Source: Thermoplasmata archaeon
GTDB taxonomy: Archaea > Thermoplasmatota > Thermoplasmata > Thermoplasmatales > Thermoplasmataceae
Assembly (NCBI GenBank): GCA_021802165.1
Contig: JAKAAU010000124.1
Location: 1-5,279 of the forward strand
Reading direction: 5' to 3'
Length of the DNA stretch: 5,279 bases
The position numbers and the translations under genes are program-made. How positions within the stretch are numbered: the stretch's first letter is position 1; each line of letters begins with the position of its first letter. This document shows, one piece after another, positions 1-5,279 of this stretch. Below the pieces are notes generated by a model. That model was not told where the DNA came from. It did no database searches and was given only the letters and a program-made list of their open reading frames with translations.

Positions 1-1398
1 AGGTATTATAACATTTTTGATTCCCAGCTCATCAGCAACAGGCATGGTAACCTGCGGCCCCGCACCGCCAAAGCCAAATAATGTAAATTCAGTTGGGTCC
101 AACCCCCTTTCAACGGTAACGAGCCTTATTGCCCTTGCCATTTCAAGGTTTGCCAGCTTAATGGCTGATTCAGCCACCTCATATGGATCACCCAGCTTCT
201 GGAGTGCTTTTAAAGCCAGGTCTTTCCTTAATATTTTGTCAGAACCTGACATTTTATCATTTATAATGCCCATAACAAGGTTTGAATCTGTAAGTGTAGG
301 CTCTTTTCCACCCCTGTTATATGCAACAGGCCCAGGTTCCGATCCTGCGCTCATAGGGCCTATATTAAGTGCGCCCGTTTTATCTTTCCATATAACTGTG
401 CCACCGCCTGACGATACTTCTGAAAGGTCTATAAATGGAAATCTCACAGGATAGCCAGATCCTTTCACTATACGCCCGTGGTGTGAAGAACCGCCAACCT
501 CGTATTCTGCGGTGATGTCCACATTATAGTTAATAACTGTACCTGCCTTGGATGTCGTTCCACCCATATCAAAACTTATTACATGGTCAATGCCCAGAAT
601 GCTTGCAAATTCACTGGCGGCAATTACCCCCGCTGCTGGCCCTGATTCTATTATGTTGACTGGCTTTTTAATAACTTCATCAACAGAAACCAGGCCTCCT
701 GCATTGGACATCATATTTATTTCCGGCGAACCGAATTTATCCAGTACAGACTTCAATCTTTTTAGATAGCCCGAAACCACAGGCATAAGGACGGCATTAA
801 CAACTGTAGTTGATGTCCTTTCATATTCCCTGGGTTCGGGTGAAACATCGTATGATATGGAAATATTATCAAAGTATTTTGATAAATAATTCTTAATATT
901 CATTTCATTTTCAGGCCTTAAATAGGAATGCAAAAAGCATATTGCAAGGGATTTTACGTTATTCTTAGCCATAGATGTTTTTATGGATTCAAGATCAGAT
1001 GTTTCAGCCTTTTTAATTATATGCCCATTAACATCGGTACGTTCATCTAACTCATAGCGCAATTTTGATGGTATAAGTGATCTGGGCCTGTGAAAATCAA
1101 GATTATAAAGCTCAGGCCTGTTCTGCCTTCCTATCTCTATTACATCCTTAAAACCCTTTGTGGTAAGAAGTGCAGTTTTTGGCAATTCAAGGCCATACTG
1201 CCCCAGCAATGAGTTTGTTGCGATTGTTGTTGCATGTACAAACTCATCAATATTTTTATTAAGATATTTGCTTAATCCGTCCATGACGGCCTGTTCAGGG
1301 TTGGCAGGCGTTGTTGGAACTTTATAATAGTGTATTTCCTCATCTATTACAATAATATCAGTGAAGGTCCCACCTATATCAATTGATACTGTAACCAT
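1..1398 (-). CDS. hyuA: HyuA-type hydantoinase/5-oxoprolinase subunit A, partial (3' end off the window)
   Basis: The reading frame starts at ATG 1398 and stays open for 466 codons to base 1, ending in the residues KNVIIP. The family is usually about 640-700 residues, so roughly the last 200 are outside the window. These enzymes are cytosolic, ATP-dependent and open cyclic amides (hydantoins, 5-oxoproline) or carboxylate ketones, normally with a HyuB subunit. Seen in the sequence: the N-terminal phosphate-binding motif DIGGTFTD (residues 7-14), [12 protein letters not shown] (55-66), SNAGG (231-235), ESGPAAGV (251-258), the second phosphate loop DMGGTTSK (277-284), SSGGGT (329-334), [11 protein letters not shown] (347-357) and FGFGGAGP (441-448). 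These are the Hydant_A_N and Hydantoinase_A domain hallmarks in the right order, without a frameshift. No Shine-Dalgarno is visible before the ATG, which suits a leaderless or short-leader mRNA. HyuB would be expected to the left. The family is secure; the exact substrate (5-oxoproline, hydantoin, acetone or acetophenone) cannot be told. Confidence -1.
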
Positions 1399-1701
1399 AT
1401 ACTTGGGATTAGCTTTTACATTATTAATATTTTCACGGAAACTTTAAATTTATGCAATATTTTGTGGTTTTTATCGTTTATTACGTAGATATAGGTTAGA
1501 GTTGTGCATGACTTTTGAAATTACAGCAATTCATATACACTGCCAGAATTCCATAATTTTTATCTCATTTTCTTATGTACAACAATTGTAGTATACAGAG
1601 AATATATAACTCCAATAGTAACTTAAAAATTAGAAGACCCCGATTTACCATATATATGCACAATGGGATTCATTGAAGAGAATATAGTTAATGCGTTTGC
1701 G
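1399..1701. other. Noncoding gap between the RDD gene and hyuA
   Basis: This A+T-rich gap of about 300 bases separates two genes of the same orientation. I find no supported gene on either strand; the longest start-to-stop frame noticed is 27 codons on the plus strand (1508-1591), without a ribosome site or recognisable product. It contains the likely hyuA promoter at its left end, the end of the upstream operon at its right end, and a weak inverted repeat (TACAA-caa-TTGTA, 1578-1590) with no clear role. Confidence 0.6.
1421..1433 (-). promoter_or_regulatory. Candidate TATA box of hyuA
   Basis: On the minus strand this reads AAAATATTAATAA, centred about 28 bases before the hyuA ATG, which is the spacing expected for a TATA box driving a leaderless archaeal transcript. 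A second candidate, ATAAATTTAAAG (about 1443-1454), lies some 50 bases upstream and would give a leader of about 20 bases. The lack of a Shine-Dalgarno before the ATG favours the nearer element. The region is so A+T-rich that chance matches are likely. Confidence 0.35.
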
Positions 1702-1706
1702 TTAAC
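1687..1706 (-). terminator. Hairpin over the stop codon of the RDD gene, possible operon terminator
   Basis: The minus-strand RNA can fold GUUAACGC-AAAC-GCAUUAAC, an 8-bp stem with one G-U pair and a 4-base loop. It includes the TAA stop codon (1704-1702) and is followed by a pyrimidine-rich stretch (ctatattctcttc). Archaeal termination depends mainly on U-tracts, so the hairpin could instead be a 3' stability element. It sits at the end of the three-gene unit and before a long gap, which supports an end-of-transcript role. Confidence 0.4.
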
Positions 1707-2724
1707 CTAACACGTAAGATTCTATATTAGCAGCAATAAATATGAGAAACATAGAAGTGGCAAAGTAAAATACAAACATTGATGTCTCTGCTTTTAAAAT
1801 ATTTTGAAACTCTTTATAACTAATTCCTTTGGTATAATTCTCTATAAAACTTGTTACAATTGTAACCACACACATTGCAAATGCTATTCCTAAAACATAT
1901 GCAAAGGTCTCCGGAAAAAATTGTGGAAGAACTTTATCCACAAAAGTGTATTTATTTCCAAGAAGTGCCATACCCATTACAGACCCTTCCAGTAGTGAGG
2001 AGGTGTATAATACAAAAATCGTAGGTATTAATAAGAAAAGCCCGCCAAGTTCTAATTGGAGATCATACGACGTGTTATTCCCAATTAATATATTATTTAA
2101 TTGATTAAATGTGGGGTTGTGATAGGGTGCTATGGAGCCAGAACCACCTGAAAAATACGTTTTACCAATCATTAAAGTTATGATAGATATGGTGAATAAT
2201 GGAAGGTAATACAATATTGCCGATATAAGTATATAATCATATAGATGCTTCTTTTTAGCATTATCAATATAAAATATATGTAATGCCTGTTCAGTAAATT
2301 TTTGTGGTCTTTCTCTTTTTCTTAGCAAACTCAGGGAGTCTACTATATTTGTTATAGGAAACGCTTTGATAGCCGTTCTAATTAGTGTTTTGCTTATATA
2401 GCTATTATCCGTTTTCAATAAAACTATTTTGCCATGGACAAGTCTATTCCCCAATGAGAGATTTCCATATATTTCAAAAAAGAAATATACAAACGAAACA
2501 ATAACAAATATCATAGATGAAATCAGTAATTTATCAGCATATGATGTGGTAATTCCTTTAGTGCCATAGGAATAAACTTCCACTAAATCAAAAAGCTCAA
2601 ACTGCTTATGTAAAGGATAAAGAATAAATGATGTTATGCAAATTAAAAGAGTTAAATCTATAAGATATGCAAATATCCTTTGGTAGAAAGTTGCTACTTC
2701 AACTTGGGAATTTGTCTTCGCCAT
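1702..2724 (-). CDS. RDD-family polytopic membrane protein with C-terminal extension
   Basis: RDD proteins are small membrane proteins, mostly of unknown role, some linked to ion or solute transport. Numbering from the ATG at 2724 (340 residues), the defining residues are R16 and D23 in FYQRIFAYLIDLTLL and D163 in HLYDY. Between them FFFEIYGNLSLGNRL (81-95) matches the family's loop after helix 2. Predicted membrane segments are about 18-38, 65-86, 166-187, 227-247, 272-294 and 315-336. The classic domain ends near 187, so the C-terminal half is an extension with three more helices and an outside loop (about 188-226) rich in Gly, Ser and Asn. I prefer 2724 over the upstream ATG at 2742 (346 residues) because GGAG sits 6 bases before it. 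The gene overlaps the end of the M48 gene by 26 bases (44 with the longer start), so the two are probably translationally coupled. A role in export of, or immunity to, the upstream small peptide is inference from position. Confidence 0.85.
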   Translation of the reverse strand: MAKTNSQVEVATFYQRIFAYLIDLTLLICITSFILYPLHKQFELFDLVEVYSYGTKGITTSYADKLLISSMIFVIVSFVYFFFEIYGNLSLGNRLVHGKIVLLKTDNSYISKTLIRTAIKAFPITNIVDSLSLLRKRERPQKFTEQALHIFYIDNAKKKHLYDYILISAILYYLPLFTISIITLMIGKTYFSGGSGSIAPYHNPTFNQLNNILIGNNTSYDLQLELGGLFLLIPTIFVLYTSSLLEGSVMGMALLGNKYTFVDKVLPQFFPETFAYVLGIAFAMCVVTIVTSFIENYTKGISYKEFQNILKAETSMFVFYFATSMFLIFIAANIESYVLG

Positions 2725-3703
2725 GCTTTTGACTCCATTCATTAATTTTCTTTATTCTGACAGTGGTAGATGGATGACTGAGAGTTAAAGAAAAGGTATA
2801 CATATACTTCGGGCTAAACTTTAACGGGGTTTTATTAAGGTTATCTATACTTACGAGAGCTGATTTTACAGTATCTGCCCCTACAGCTTTACAGGCAAAT
2901 AGATCGGCTTTTACCTCATCGCTGCGCTGTAGTAGTGGAAGTATTAATGTGGCGAAAATATAAAGGAAAATAATTGCTATAGGAATCAGTATATAAAATT
3001 TTTTTTCAATGAATGAAAGCAGGAAAGCGTTAATGCCAAATACCAGTGCCAACCAGCTAATCAAAAAATGTTTTAAATTATGTTTCATAACTAAATGCCC
3101 TATTTCGTGTGCAACAACAGCTTCTAATTCTGACTCTGATAAGTTTGAAAGCAGATAGCTTGTAATATAAATATAATATTTATCTGATTGGTATCCATTA
3201 GCTATTTTAACGCTGTTTGTATCTATTATTTTTATGTGAGGTGTTATGTTATAATCCCGAAAAACCTTAAGTATTGACTGTATTTTTGTGTCTTCATTGT
3301 TTTCTATTGATGGAATTCTATTATATTTTATATTAGAGATTGGCTGTAATAGAACCAGGAGTATGAATATAATTAATACTATATTTATGTATATTAAAGT
3401 ATCAATATATGTGTGAGTCATAATATAATATCCAGAAACAAACATAAAAAATAATATAAGCACTATTAGTGGACCATAACTATTGAATTTTAGATATTCA
3501 GCAAATGTTGCTGTTATACCTTTATCTTTCCTGTCAATAAGGTATCCTAAAAAAACAAGAATAAATGCTACAAATTCTGAACCCGTAAGAGTTATTAACC
3601 ATATCAACAGTGTAAAGTGATAAATAATAATTGAAGGTATAAATAAAAATATAGATATCGGATACAAAGTACCGATTATTATGCGTTTTTGAAAATTATC
3701 CAT
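2699..3703 (-). CDS. M48-family membrane metalloprotease (HtpX/Ste24-like)
   Basis: This 334-residue protein is a zinc metallopeptidase embedded in the cytoplasmic membrane. The zinc site is HEIGH (His199, Glu200, His203) with the third ligand Glu263 in the family motif RSDEVKAD (260-267, the usual ExxAD). The C-terminal HPSTTVRI (310-317) is also typical of M48, as is the IANGY strand (167-171) before the active site. Four hydrophobic segments (about 8-29, 31-55, 77-95, 100-122) precede the soluble part and two more (about 212-232, 236-256) split it. With Lys/Arg at the N-terminus and in the 57-61 loop, the positive-inside rule puts the protease domain in the cytoplasm, as in HtpX. HtpX acts in membrane protein quality control and Ste24 in peptide precursor maturation. 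The four-helix N-terminus and the setting, 15 bases after a small hydrophobic protein and overlapping an RDD gene, fit a dedicated maturation protease, but general quality control is not excluded. No catalytic residue is missing. Confidence 0.93.
   Translation of the reverse strand: MDNFQKRIIIGTLYPISIFLFIPSIIIYHFTLLIWLITLTGSEFVAFILVFLGYLIDRKDKGITATFAEYLKFNSYGPLIVLILFFMFVSGYYIMTHTYIDTLIYINIVLIIFILLVLLQPISNIKYNRIPSIENNEDTKIQSILKVFRDYNITPHIKIIDTNSVKIANGYQSDKYYIYITSYLLSNLSESELEAVVAHEIGHLVMKHNLKHFLISWLALVFGINAFLLSFIEKKFYILIPIAIIFLYIFATLILPLLQRSDEVKADLFACKAVGADTVKSALVSIDNLNKTPLKFSPKYMYTFSLTLSHPSTTVRIKKINEWSQKHGEDKFPS
2733..2736 (-). promoter_or_regulatory. Shine-Dalgarno GGAG deciding the RDD start
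   Basis: GGAG followed by 8 bases (2+6; GGAGTC then AAAAGC) precedes the ATG at 2724. The alternative ATG at 2742 is preceded only by A-rich sequence, so the downstream start is favoured. The site lies inside the last codons of the M48 gene, as expected for coupled translation. Confidence 0.5.
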
Positions 3704-3707
3704 ATCG

Positions 3708-3712
3708 CACCT
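3708..3712 (-). promoter_or_regulatory. Shine-Dalgarno AGGTG of the M48 gene
   Basis: AGGTG lies 4 bases before the ATG at 3703 and within the 15-base gap after the stop codon of the small-peptide gene. It matches the archaeal anti-Shine-Dalgarno well. It supports both the chosen start and translation of the protease from the same mRNA as the upstream peptide. Confidence 0.6.
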
Positions 3713-3718
3713 ATGGAA

Positions 3719-4192
3719 TCAATATGCAGCTATTGCAGCGCCAATGGCCGCTCCAACATATCCACTTGCTGCTAAAATTGCATCTGCGGTCGCTTCTGTA
3801 ATCCATCCAGCAGCCCCTAATGCGTCAGCGACAAGAATGGCTACGCTGGGTTCCAGTCCCATAGTGACAGTTAGCCAATTAAACCAAGTAGACGCTGTCG
3901 GGAAATGGCCATGTGTGAAGTAGTAGTATAGAAAATTTCCATGTGATGTGCCAGTATTAATTAGCGCCCCGGGAAGCATATGACTTGCGTCTTCAATAAT
4001 AGGAACTCCTGCAATACTTAAGTATCCTGCTCCCGATATCATACAGAAGAGTGATACCATCACAATAGCTTTTGCAACTCTCTTGTAGTGCTCCCTGTTA
4101 TCTTTTTGCATGGAGCCAATTGCCATGTTCGAAGATAACCCCTTTCTTTTACGGTAGAGAACACTGCTCTCAACTATGTTTATTTCAAACAT
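3719..4192 (-). CDS. Unknown small membrane protein, candidate bacteriocin-like precursor peptide
   Basis: I do not recognise a named family for this 157-residue protein. Seen: a basic N-terminus (R14-K17, K37-R38), one hydrophobic segment (about 39-62), a middle stretch with four His (71, 84, 94, 96) and many aromatic residues (88-106), and a C-terminal region (115-157) with 16 Ala in 43 residues, ending GAAIAAY. Residues 107-157 contain no Lys, Arg or His and four acidic residues. The block from M111 onward aligns without gaps to the start of enterocin AS-48 as I recall it (shared G112, V117, A118, V121, A127, G129, W130, T132, S143, G144), but lacks the cationic end of AS-48. The start at 4192 is chosen because a TATA box lies 27 bases upstream, which fits a leaderless mRNA. 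ATGs at codons 23 and 28 are alternatives, the former with a weak GGGGTT upstream. The gene leads an operon with an M48 protease and an RDD protein. A processed secreted or membrane-inserted peptide is my inference; an anchored regulatory partner of the protease is the main alternative. Confidence 0.75.
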   Translation of the reverse strand: MFEINIVESSVLYRKRKGLSSNMAIGSMQKDNREHYKRVAKAIVMVSLFCMISGAGYLSIAGVPIIEDASHMLPGALINTGTSHGNFLYYYFTHGHFPTASTWFNWLTVTMGLEPSVAILVADALGAAGWITEATADAILAASGYVGAAIGAAIAAY

Positions 4193-4215
4193 AATATATA
4201 TAGATACATAACATT

Positions 4216-4223
4216 TATTTAAA
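4216..4223 (-). promoter_or_regulatory. TATA box of the peptide-M48-RDD operon
   Basis: The minus strand reads TTTAAATA, close to the archaeal TATA consensus, centred 27-28 bases upstream of the A of the ATG at 4192. That spacing places the transcription start at or next to the start codon, so the mRNA is probably leaderless. No Shine-Dalgarno is present before this ATG, in contrast to the two downstream genes. Confidence 0.55.
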
Positions 4224-4256
4224 TATTTCTATAAATACATACATCAAGATTGCCTT

Positions 4257-4293
4257 ACTATATAATTTACTTTCTTCGTTATACTATATAGTA
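4257..4293. repeat. Direct repeat and 12-bp palindrome upstream of the operon promoter
   Basis: ACTATATA occurs at 4257-4264 and again at 4283-4290, 26 bases apart. The second copy lies within the perfect palindrome TACTATATAGTA (4282-4293). Both lie some 40-70 bases upstream of the TATA box, where an archaeal activator could bind. The low-complexity A+T background makes chance occurrence quite possible. Confidence 0.35.
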
Positions 4294-4435
4294 GTAATAT
4301 ATAGAAATTAATTCGTGAATAAACTTATTCTTATTTAACTTCATTCTGGGCTTATATTCTTTTATTGTATTTTTAGATGGTATATATGGAATATTTACGG
4401 GGCGATATATTATTTACTATTTAAATAAATTTCAA

Positions 4436-4453
4436 AAGGGAAAATATTCCCTT
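4436..4453. repeat. Perfect inverted repeat AAGGGAA-AATA-TTCCCTT
   Basis: A 7-bp perfect stem with a 4-base spacer, G+C-rich at its core within an otherwise very A+T-rich gap. Part of it (AAATATTCC, 4442-4450) is also the reverse complement of GGAATATTT at 4388-4396. It lies about 140 bases beyond the DUF763 stop and about 240 bases upstream of the small-peptide gene. It could be a protein-binding site or a transcript-end hairpin; the sequence alone cannot decide. Confidence 0.45.
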
Positions 4454-4578
4454 CCATTTAATTATTAACTTCATTGAGAGTGTTGGCCTATATTTACCCC
4501 AAATTATGGATAGGATCATTTAGTTTCAACAATGTTTATAATAATATTTATAATACATTATATAAATAACACCCAGAA

Positions 4579-4594
4579 AGAAAATTGATTTTCT
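4579..4594 (-). terminator. Weak inverted repeat at the DUF763 stop codon, possible terminator
   Basis: The minus strand reads AGAAAATCAATTTTCT, a 7-bp A/T-rich inverted repeat that begins within the TAG stop codon and is followed by T-rich sequence. With only 2 bases between the arms the real loop would be larger. The T-run (ATTTTCTTTCT) is the part most likely to matter for archaeal termination. Confidence 0.3.
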
Positions 4595-5279
4595 ATCTGC
4601 TGGAAATTCTATAACTCATTCTGGCCAGGCGTTTTGATATTTCTGCATAGTTGCTGTTTCCATTCAGTATTTCCTTATAAAATTTTATAGCTTCATCATA
4701 ATCGTTTACATTTACCGGCTTTGGAACGCCGTCCTTCCCACCAAGGCAAAAAGAATATTTAACCGGGTCTGCAAATGATGGCTTATCCCCATAAACAATT
4801 TCAGCAAGATATGAAAGTGCCCTTATTGTTGATTTTGAAATTCCTGGCATGTCCATCAATTCATCGAACTTACCAGGATTATACTCATAAAGTTCTTTCA
4901 TTTTCTGCCAGTTTATTTTATAATTCAGGTCAAGAACAGAGGCTGATTCCATAAAATTGTCCAGTGAACGTTGTTTGCTGTATTTTAGAGGATTGTCCTG
5001 TATTATATTTATTATTCCTTCCCTATTTTTTTCACTTTTTCTGGTTGAAAGGTCAAGTGCAATATTTTCTTCGTAGCCGGAAATGCCATTCCTTTTATCA
5101 TCATATAAAGAAATGTCATTATTTTTCCAGTGGTACCGCCTGGCAAGGCTTGAAACAGTATTCATGCCCTGGTTGACTATTGTATAATTTCCTTTGTAAT
5201 CCATCAGAATAAATTGCATATAAAGGTTAAATCCGTCCTGGAGCAGCTTTTCATCCACCTTTGCTATTGATTTCGCATC
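4593..5279 (-). CDS. DUF763 domain protein, partial (5' end off the window)
   Basis: The frame is open to the right edge of the window and ends at TAG 4595-4593, giving 228 visible residues of a family that is typically near 370-400 long, so the N-terminal part is missing. A GTG at 5258 is in frame but is not the true start: the seven codons before it (DAKSIAK) continue the conserved domain, and the family's QDG and QQGMN-like motifs follow at once. Seen in the visible part: LLQDGF (12-17), NQGMN (36-40), ARRYHW (46-51), the helix-hairpin-helix-like MPGISKSTIRAL (144-155), and the signature DPVKYSFCLGGKDGVPKPV (171-189), followed by YDEAI. The role of DUF763 is not established. The hairpin-like motif hints at nucleic acid contact, but this is inference. 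Base composition is closer to hyuA than to the operon downstream, and the 400-base gap suggests it is transcribed separately from that operon. Confidence 0.92.
   Translation of the reverse strand, partial: DAKSIAKVDEKLLQDGFNLYMQFILMDYKGNYTIVNQGMNTVSSLARRYHWKNNDISLYDDKRNGISGYEENIALDLSTRKSEKNREGIINIIQDNPLKYSKQRSLDNFMESASVLDLNYKINWQKMKELYEYNPGKFDELMDMPGISKSTIRALSYLAEIVYGDKPSFADPVKYSFCLGGKDGVPKPVNVNDYDEAIKFYKEILNGNSNYAEISKRLARMSYRISSR

Follow-up and report, generated by a model that had tools for sequence, protein, structure and literature searches.

The window analysed here is a 5,279-nucleotide (nt) stretch from a Ferroplasma-like Thermoplasmata archaeon of the family Thermoplasmataceae (GenBank assembly GCA_021802165.1, contig JAKAAU010000124.1, positions 1 to 5,279), and it carries a cassette of three genes. 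In reading order these are a small-protein gene (3719-4192) for a 157-amino-acid (aa) precursor made up of a leader, a membrane helix and a hydrophobic core, a gene for an M48 membrane metalloprotease (2699-3703; 334 aa), and a gene for a membrane protein with RDD and SpoIIM domains (RDD-SpoIIM; 1702-2724). These genes, and all features given below with window coordinates, lie on the minus strand. The open reading frames (ORFs) confirmed the initial annotation of three genes in one direction, with a gap of 15 nt between the small gene and the M48 gene and an overlap between the latter and the RDD-SpoIIM gene. The last ORF extends to 2742 (346 aa); a start at Met7 (2724) appears more likely than one at 2742 because a GGAG motif (2733-2736) can be read just upstream of it. 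A Shine-Dalgarno-like AGGTG (3708-3712) was likewise read 4 nt before the ATG of the M48 gene. No Shine-Dalgarno site was seen for the small gene, and a putative TATA-like box, TATTTAAATA (4216-4225), is centered ∼28 nt upstream of it; this combination resembles that of a leaderless archaeal transcript. The hairpin noted at the end of the cassette found no support as a terminator, as its predicted fold was weak (−6.0 kcal/mol; z, −1.36), 15 of 200 shuffles folded equally well, and no clear U-run was present.

Genes for a DUF763 protein and for hydantoinase A flank the cassette. The three genes were found with the same neighbors in Ferroplasma acidarmanus Fer1 (region L001) and Ferroplasmaceae archaeon UBA567 (L002), and all three proteins encoded in a further genome (G036) were identical to those of the window. 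Comparison with F. acidarmanus gave ratios of nonsynonymous to synonymous substitution (dN/dS) of 0.10 for the small gene, 0.17 for the M48 gene and 0.13 for the RDD-SpoIIM gene, with 0.02 and 0.05 for the neighboring genes. All three cassette genes are under purifying selection in this comparison, and the small gene thus encodes a constrained protein, which is 91% identical to its F. acidarmanus counterpart. There was no plasmid match. Viral contigs yielded no protein related to RDD-SpoIIM, and viral carriage was dropped as a candidate on this result.

The precursor opens with a basic leader (residues 1 to 41; 4070-4192) containing 9 Lys/Arg (K/R) and 4 Asp/Glu (D/E) residues, followed by a membrane helix (residues 42 to 62; 4007-4069) that ends in GVP and was delimited by hydropathy and by the identities of each region, which mark it as the most conserved part of the family. 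A junction motif (residues 83 to 98; 3899-3946), with the family form of roughly GD..YE..HWG..P in alignment A4, leads into a hypervariable core (residues 99 to 157; 3722-3898) that has no K/R, 4 D/E and 39% Ala plus Gly, and that ends in AAIAAY. The mature peptide probably corresponds to this core. The same layout, with basic N terminus, GVP-ending helix, linker, junction motif and hydrophobic core, is shared across the family. Cores extend for 57 to 80 residues after the motif and are very hydrophobic, and most end in a small residue plus Tyr, Phe or Trp, or in Ala; over 23 cores, 12 K/R were counted against 95 D/E. The basic N terminus had been placed in the cytoplasm, with which a crude positive-inside count agreed (K/R, 9 against 0). 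By the same crude count the linker after the leader helix lies outside, and the core is predicted to begin there, while hydropathy indicated one to three further hydrophobic stretches inside the core that could leave the C terminus on either side. A PDB sequence search with the precursor family returned nothing beyond an enolase (E value, 0.083) taken as a chance match, and none of 18 precursors matched the Pfam or NCBIfam archaeocin models.

Assignment of the second gene to the M48 membrane proteases held, with a match to PF01435 (E value, 2.6e−21), the zinc-site motif HEIGH (residues 199 to 203; 3095-3109) and the third ligand Glu in EVKAD at residue 263, as expected of this family. The closest PDB entry to the M48 family profile was Ste24p (5.7e−14). 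HExxH was present in 22 of 23 cassette M48s, from which proteolysis probably matters, and in four Gln replaces the third-ligand Glu. The active site had been assigned to the cytoplasm, and it does lie on the K/R-richer side in the window protein (18 against 2) and in 25 of 27 family M48s. Region L039 (1404-6146) carries two M48 genes before the RDD-SpoIIM gene, the first without HExxH, and a third M48 gene after the upstream precursor.

The third gene had been described as encoding an RDD membrane protein. An RDD domain is present (2335-2697; PF06271; E value, 5.4e−8), but a C-terminal SpoIIM (DUF95) domain (1711-2097; PF01944; E value, 2.2e−7; 31.4 bits against a cut-off of 26.9) had been overlooked. 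At E values of up to 0.01, 9 of 13 family members (the window protein among them) had SpoIIM and 3 had RDD; PF01944 scores in three relatives were 27.7, 26.8 and 24.2 bits, and one relative had no match. A PDB sequence search returned nothing, and no settled picture of topology emerged from hydropathy. According to passages of three papers (PMC8659200, PMC8534725, PMC7132975), SpoIIM/DUF95 proteins belong to the usual gene set of circular-bacteriocin clusters in bacteria, and one of the three reports that loss of SpoIIM leaves mature leucocyclicin Q inside the cell. The suggestion of an export or immunity protein is strengthened by the SpoIIM domain.

Among 77 genomes from the window's own GTDB family, a profile of the 18 small proteins matched 22, the weakest of which (G404; E value, 5.6e−4) is doubtful, and it matched 19 of 400 genomes sampled from the class, including a match inside a 795-aa frame of G253 (E value, 4e−4) that is probably due to chance. 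With a profile of the third protein, a sample of 389 genomes from the phylum gave 14 matches, including three weak ones. Across the regions read, an M48 ORF was located no more than 150 nt from 31 of 38 small ORFs of at least 100 aa (37 of them distinct) and no more than 400 nt from 18 of 21 RDD-SpoIIM ORFs of at least 300 aa, in agreement with the proposal that precursor, M48 and RDD genes form a functional unit. The seven small-ORF rows without M48 were from G236 (listed twice), L059, L100, the contig ends L099 and L115, and L116, where a 93-aa M48 fragment at a contig end fell below the threshold. Counted from the protease, 43 M48 ORFs of at least 200 aa had both partners in 25 cases, only the small gene in 5, only the RDD-SpoIIM gene in 4 and neither in 9, a tally that is not a frequency estimate, as several regions were fetched for an M48 without a known small gene. 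That homologues always sit beside M48 and RDD genes proved an overstatement. Some loci form an M48-less subtype, and the small gene of L036 and L037 is directed away from the M48 gene; a single transcript thus does not cover all three genes in every case.

The M48-less subtype, with related precursors, comprises L050 (168-2863; precursor broken), L053 (1441-3959), L059 (5453-6678), L100 (5388-6756) and L102 (4815-5348). A cationic ORF of 71 to 103 aa with two predicted helices occupies the M48 slot beside the RDD-SpoIIM gene in L050, L059 and L100 (K/R:D/E of 6:3, 13:3 and 17:5, respectively); those of L059 and L100 are clearly related, that of L050 not clearly so. Broken or truncated RDD-SpoIIM genes without M48 were also observed in L049, L052, L054, L056, L057 and L058, some of them, by eye, beside transposase-like ORFs. 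The cassette is often decaying.

Comparisons among close relatives located the variation within the cassette. Between precursors P0002 and L001, 96 of 98 residues preceding the core were identical, against 33 of 59 within it; the corresponding counts for L043 and L042b were 80 of 102 and 11 of 70, and another pair had 89 of 102 identical ahead of the core. In the tandem copies of L042, the first of which is cut by the contig end, the leader residues present and the 59-residue RDD start were identical, whereas identity was 25% in the core and 21% in the M48 (18% and 30%, respectively, by pairwise alignment). The first L042 copy and L043, from another genome, were 99% identical in the core and 98% in the M48 but only 75% in the leader. 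At the DNA level, identity within L042 and between L043 and L044 drops at the junction motif or slightly ahead of it and recovers where the RDD-SpoIIM gene begins; in a second, less diverged tandem pair, L095 (leader, 0.88; core, 0.51; M48, 0.62), it drops slightly earlier and recovers within the last part of the M48 gene. L114 (4211-12247) contains four precursor-M48 units with one full RDD-SpoIIM gene and one stub. Its three full leaders are 0.74 to 0.96 alike and the fourth precursor has no leader, while the four cores are 0.24 to 0.34 alike and the four M48s, each with HExxH, 0.22 to 0.29.

Such block replacement and arrays, together with decayed copies and a patchy presence (22 of 77 genomes), are unlike a housekeeping operon, and make it very improbable that the locus is an ordinary membrane-protein quality-control operon in which an HtpX-like M48 and a membrane protein act with the small protein as substrate or accessory. 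Further M48 genes do occur outside cassettes in these genomes, which speaks for other roles of the family. Against a housekeeping role of the cassette itself, L147, L153 and L156 each have a separate M48 gene near a ribosomal-protein-like gene that is presumably S15-like; the gene order there is similar among the three, and this M48 is probably the housekeeping one.

Over 23 cassettes, partial rank correlations were 0.77 between leader and RDD (p = 0.0005) and 0.34 between core and M48 (p = 0.0005), against 0.07 between leader and M48 (p = 0.19) and 0.16 between core and RDD (p = 0.06). A less redundant set of 18, omitting L001, L043, L042a, L095b and L039a, gave 0.80, 0.45, 0.12 and 0.15, respectively. 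L041 (a near-copy of L040) and L002 (all three proteins as in L001) were outside the 23 from the start, the L043 M48 was represented by its larger ORF only, and L059, L099, L100, L102, L115, L116 and L148 to L150, being M48-less, cut by a contig end or decayed, were outside both this set and that of 28 cassettes. Conditional on M48 and core, the junction motif covaried with RDD (0.38; p = 0.001), but it did not covary with M48 once leader, RDD and core were accounted for (0.01); it changes together with the core in tandem copies, yet family-wide it follows RDD-SpoIIM. RDD-SpoIIM most likely serves the leader, in export.

Of 39 pairs with a leader identity of at least 0.6, 8 (from four locus groups) resembled each other in core as well as M48, 31 in neither, and none was discordant, the cut-offs of this table (0.6, 0.5 and 0.45) having been chosen after the data were seen. 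Across all 378 pairs, both were alike in 12 and neither in 358, and no pair combined a similar M48 with a different core. Given the breakpoints, the tandem copies and the absence of discordant leader-matched pairs, the replacement unit among close relatives is the junction motif, core and M48 together. Over long distances, M48 either diverges faster than the core or is now and then replaced while the core stays. When the cores were clustered by single linkage at an identity of 0.38, 19 of 28 were lumped; the median M48 identity of 0.27 within and 0.26 between clusters carries no signal, and the leader-matched pairs were used instead.

Leader/core polymorphism with a matching partner would also suit self/non-self signaling, in which the small protein is a hypervariable, pheromone-like recognition peptide rather than a weapon; Ste24-type M48 proteases mature a peptide pheromone precursor in yeast. 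At 57 to 80 very hydrophobic residues, however, the cores are long for a pheromone, arrays hold several different cores side by side, and no recurrent receptor or regulator gene was seen in the cassettes read, the neighbors of which were not annotated by family search. Signaling therefore appears improbable, if less so than quality control.

According to the initial annotation, the M48 protease matures the precursor. As written, this was unsupported. A protease that removes leaders should track them, yet with core and RDD accounted for M48 does not covary with the leader (0.07), while given leader and RDD it does covary with the core (0.34); after partialling it follows neither leader nor junction motif, and leader-directed proteolysis was dropped as the main explanation. 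The predicted cytoplasmic active site also sits poorly with a core predicted to start outside, and intact M48s exist without a core. L152 (4200-5024) encodes a 274-aa M48 that is 77% (210/274) identical to the cassette M48 of L048 (dN/dS, 0.31), with no small or RDD-SpoIIM gene adjoining, although its genome (G346) may be incomplete and a core could be missed there; L150 has an intact M48 beside a leader-only remnant and L149 one beside a broken small gene. M48 thus appears to fit better as a partner specific to the core, in the form of either cognate immunity or a core-directed protease. Its leader independence after partialling, the intact M48s without cores and the M48-less subtype with a slot ORF favor immunity over leader removal, and between the two roles we regard immunity as about an even bet and maturation as distinctly less probable.

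A maturation protease or cyclase could instead cut at or inside the variable part, with RDD-SpoIIM as exporter that also carries immunity. This would accord with Ste24p as the nearest PDB match, with the yeast precedent and with the catalytic motif kept in 22 of 23 M48s. Passages of PMC8659200 further report two bacterial circular-bacteriocin clusters that carry an M48, proposed there for processing, and that paper and PMC8534725, in the parts that concern processing, treat the enzyme as unknown in this field. In addition, the M48-less L050 and L053 have a membrane peptidase, weakly S24/S26-like and below Pfam cut-offs, near the RDD-SpoIIM gene. The missing covariation of M48 with leader and junction motif, the core-less M48s and the cytoplasmic prediction for 25 of 27 active sites bear against maturation here as well, and we regard this alternative as less likely than not.

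What was observed is conservation, the domains, a leader that stays constant beside a variable core, replacement of whole blocks among close relatives, tandem arrays and purifying selection. They point to a leader/core conflict-peptide (archaeocin-like) system in which M48 most likely provides immunity and RDD-SpoIIM export, a reading to which we assign a probability of roughly 0.6. The cassette is a real, conserved and modular peptide cassette with an evolutionary pattern resembling that of weapon systems; the functions of the parts, namely secretion, export, immunity, activation by acid, killing and any cyclization, are inferred. The precursor would be anchored in the membrane through its basic leader and helix with the core outward, and RDD-SpoIIM would recognize leader and junction and serve export or release, as SpoIIM proteins do in circular-bacteriocin clusters. 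The core would be the variable weapon. The Ferroplasma habitat is near pH 1, where an acidic core would be nearly uncharged and could therefore insert into the membranes of neighbors. For a related genus, the abstract of PMC11349054 puts the growth optimum at pH 1.0. M48 would act as a cognate immunity protease that removes, from the cytoplasmic side, core entering the producer's own membrane. New weapons would arise as motif, core and M48 are swapped as a block between the constant leader and the RDD-SpoIIM gene, and would sometimes be stored as tandem arrays. A more specific version is doubtful, though not far-fetched: polymorphic acid-activated archaeocins of Thermoplasmatales-type archaea, distant cousins of AS-48, whose acidic core inserts only at habitat pH, with a dedicated M48 accompanying each core as cognate immunity and arrays of leader-core-M48 units recombining into one RDD-SpoIIM export site.

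Several observations weigh against this conflict-peptide reading. G236 carries an intact precursor kilobases from its RDD-SpoIIM gene with no adjoining M48, and L043 and L059 retain the precursor frame with a broken or absent M48. The S24/S26-like peptidase of L050 and L053 may stand in for M48 as a maturase, and the M48s reported in two bacterial clusters were proposed for processing. One M48 (L039b) has no HExxH, although the second M48 of that cassette has HEYGH, four have Gln in place of the third-ligand Glu, and in 2 of 27 (L040 and L098) HExxH is not on the K/R-richer side. Low K/R in the outside segments is also what the positive-inside rule predicts. Without partialling, the leader-M48 correlation is 0.35, and within the 39 leader-matched pairs the plain leader-M48 value (0.41) is no lower than that of core and M48 (0.38). 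Eight of the 378 pairs have similar cores (0.58 to 0.79) with M48s only 0.28 to 0.43 alike, such that linkage is not strict over long distances. The core-M48 partial correlation is itself moderate, and it comes from non-independent pairs, a permutation that keeps no tree and a test framed after L042 had been seen.

Few archaeal peptide weapons are known, the best known of them from halophiles. If the conflict-peptide reading is true, the cassette would offer a testable, rapidly swapped weapon system for acid-mine communities, and M48 proteases would become candidates for cognate immunity. The finding would also be relevant to the open question of leader processing in circular bacteriocins, for which, in passages of papers of 2020 to 2021, no leader-processing enzyme had been identified (PMC8659200, PMC8534725). 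The E-plasma genome, according to a 2023 study, yielded no bacteriocin locus with antiSMASH and BACTIBASE (PMC10354927); current mining tools may therefore miss such cassettes, should this genome carry one.

Among known systems, the circular bacteriocins (AS-48/uberolysin/carnocyclin, PF09221; gassericin A) likewise have a basic hydrophobic leader and a hydrophobic core, and a SpoIIM protein in the cluster, as do the cassettes (9 of 13 third-gene proteins; E values of up to 0.01). However, none of the 18 precursors matched PF09221 at E values of up to 10, in a search where HMMER filters discard most matches above ∼0.1, and none matched the NCBIfam bacteriocin models. The cassette has no ATP-binding cassette (ABC) ATPase, whereas the bacterial clusters L104 to L107 have one; by eye, no ATPase or other recurrent gene was apparent in the unit, either in the window or in the relatives covered, a survey limited to neighboring genes. 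Annotated genes of the AS-48 and gassericin A plasmid clusters include a precursor, SpoIIM and an ATPase but no M48, unlike the cassette, and the AS-48 core is basic where that of the cassette is acidic. Plain membership in the circular bacteriocins was dropped, with no model match and no ATPase.

A weak lead concerns the cores of the window type (five sequences), which aligned with AS-48 over 41 columns from a GL/GI motif through AGW at 39% identity, with an hhalign score of 21.2 and a probability of only 21.7%. This score was reached by none of 600 column shuffles (mean, 10.3; standard deviation, 2.2; maximum, 19.8) and none of 40 windows of the partner proteins; the reversed core scored 10.6, and leave-one-out scores were 20.3 to 24.3. 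The likeness was noticed first and tested afterwards. In five other shuffled core comparisons, 2 to 47 of 60 shuffles were equally good, and three comparisons against a pooled bacterial set gave scores without shuffles. A likeness of a second core group to gassericin A, which 2 of 60 shuffles equaled and which alone among these five approaches a signal, is not claimed.

In class II bacteriocin loci such as pneumococcal blp, the Abi/CAAX genes also place a membrane metalloprotease beside a peptide, for which passages of PMC9298176 and PMC4517551 report or propose self-immunity; the same sources name processing and receptor roles, and a SilX deletion that was not sensitive speaks against immunity there (PMC9298176). 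Those proteases are type II CAAX with EExxxR and FxxxH motifs, whereas the cassette protease is an M48 with HExxH. Known archaeocins (halocins and sulfolobicins) are, like the proposed product, archaeal, small and presumably secreted antagonistic peptides, a likeness of description and not of sequence. No archaeal system combining SpoIIM, RDD and M48 with a bacteriocin was found among the matches listed in open-licence literature, and overlap with candidates of a 2019 survey of archaeal antimicrobial peptides is possible. Polymorphic toxins, as outlined in part of PMC3482391, share the logic alone, with a constant delivery part, a swappable part with its partner gene, and arrays of extra cassettes; where they have a large toxin and an immunity protein, the cassette has a short membrane peptide and a protease.

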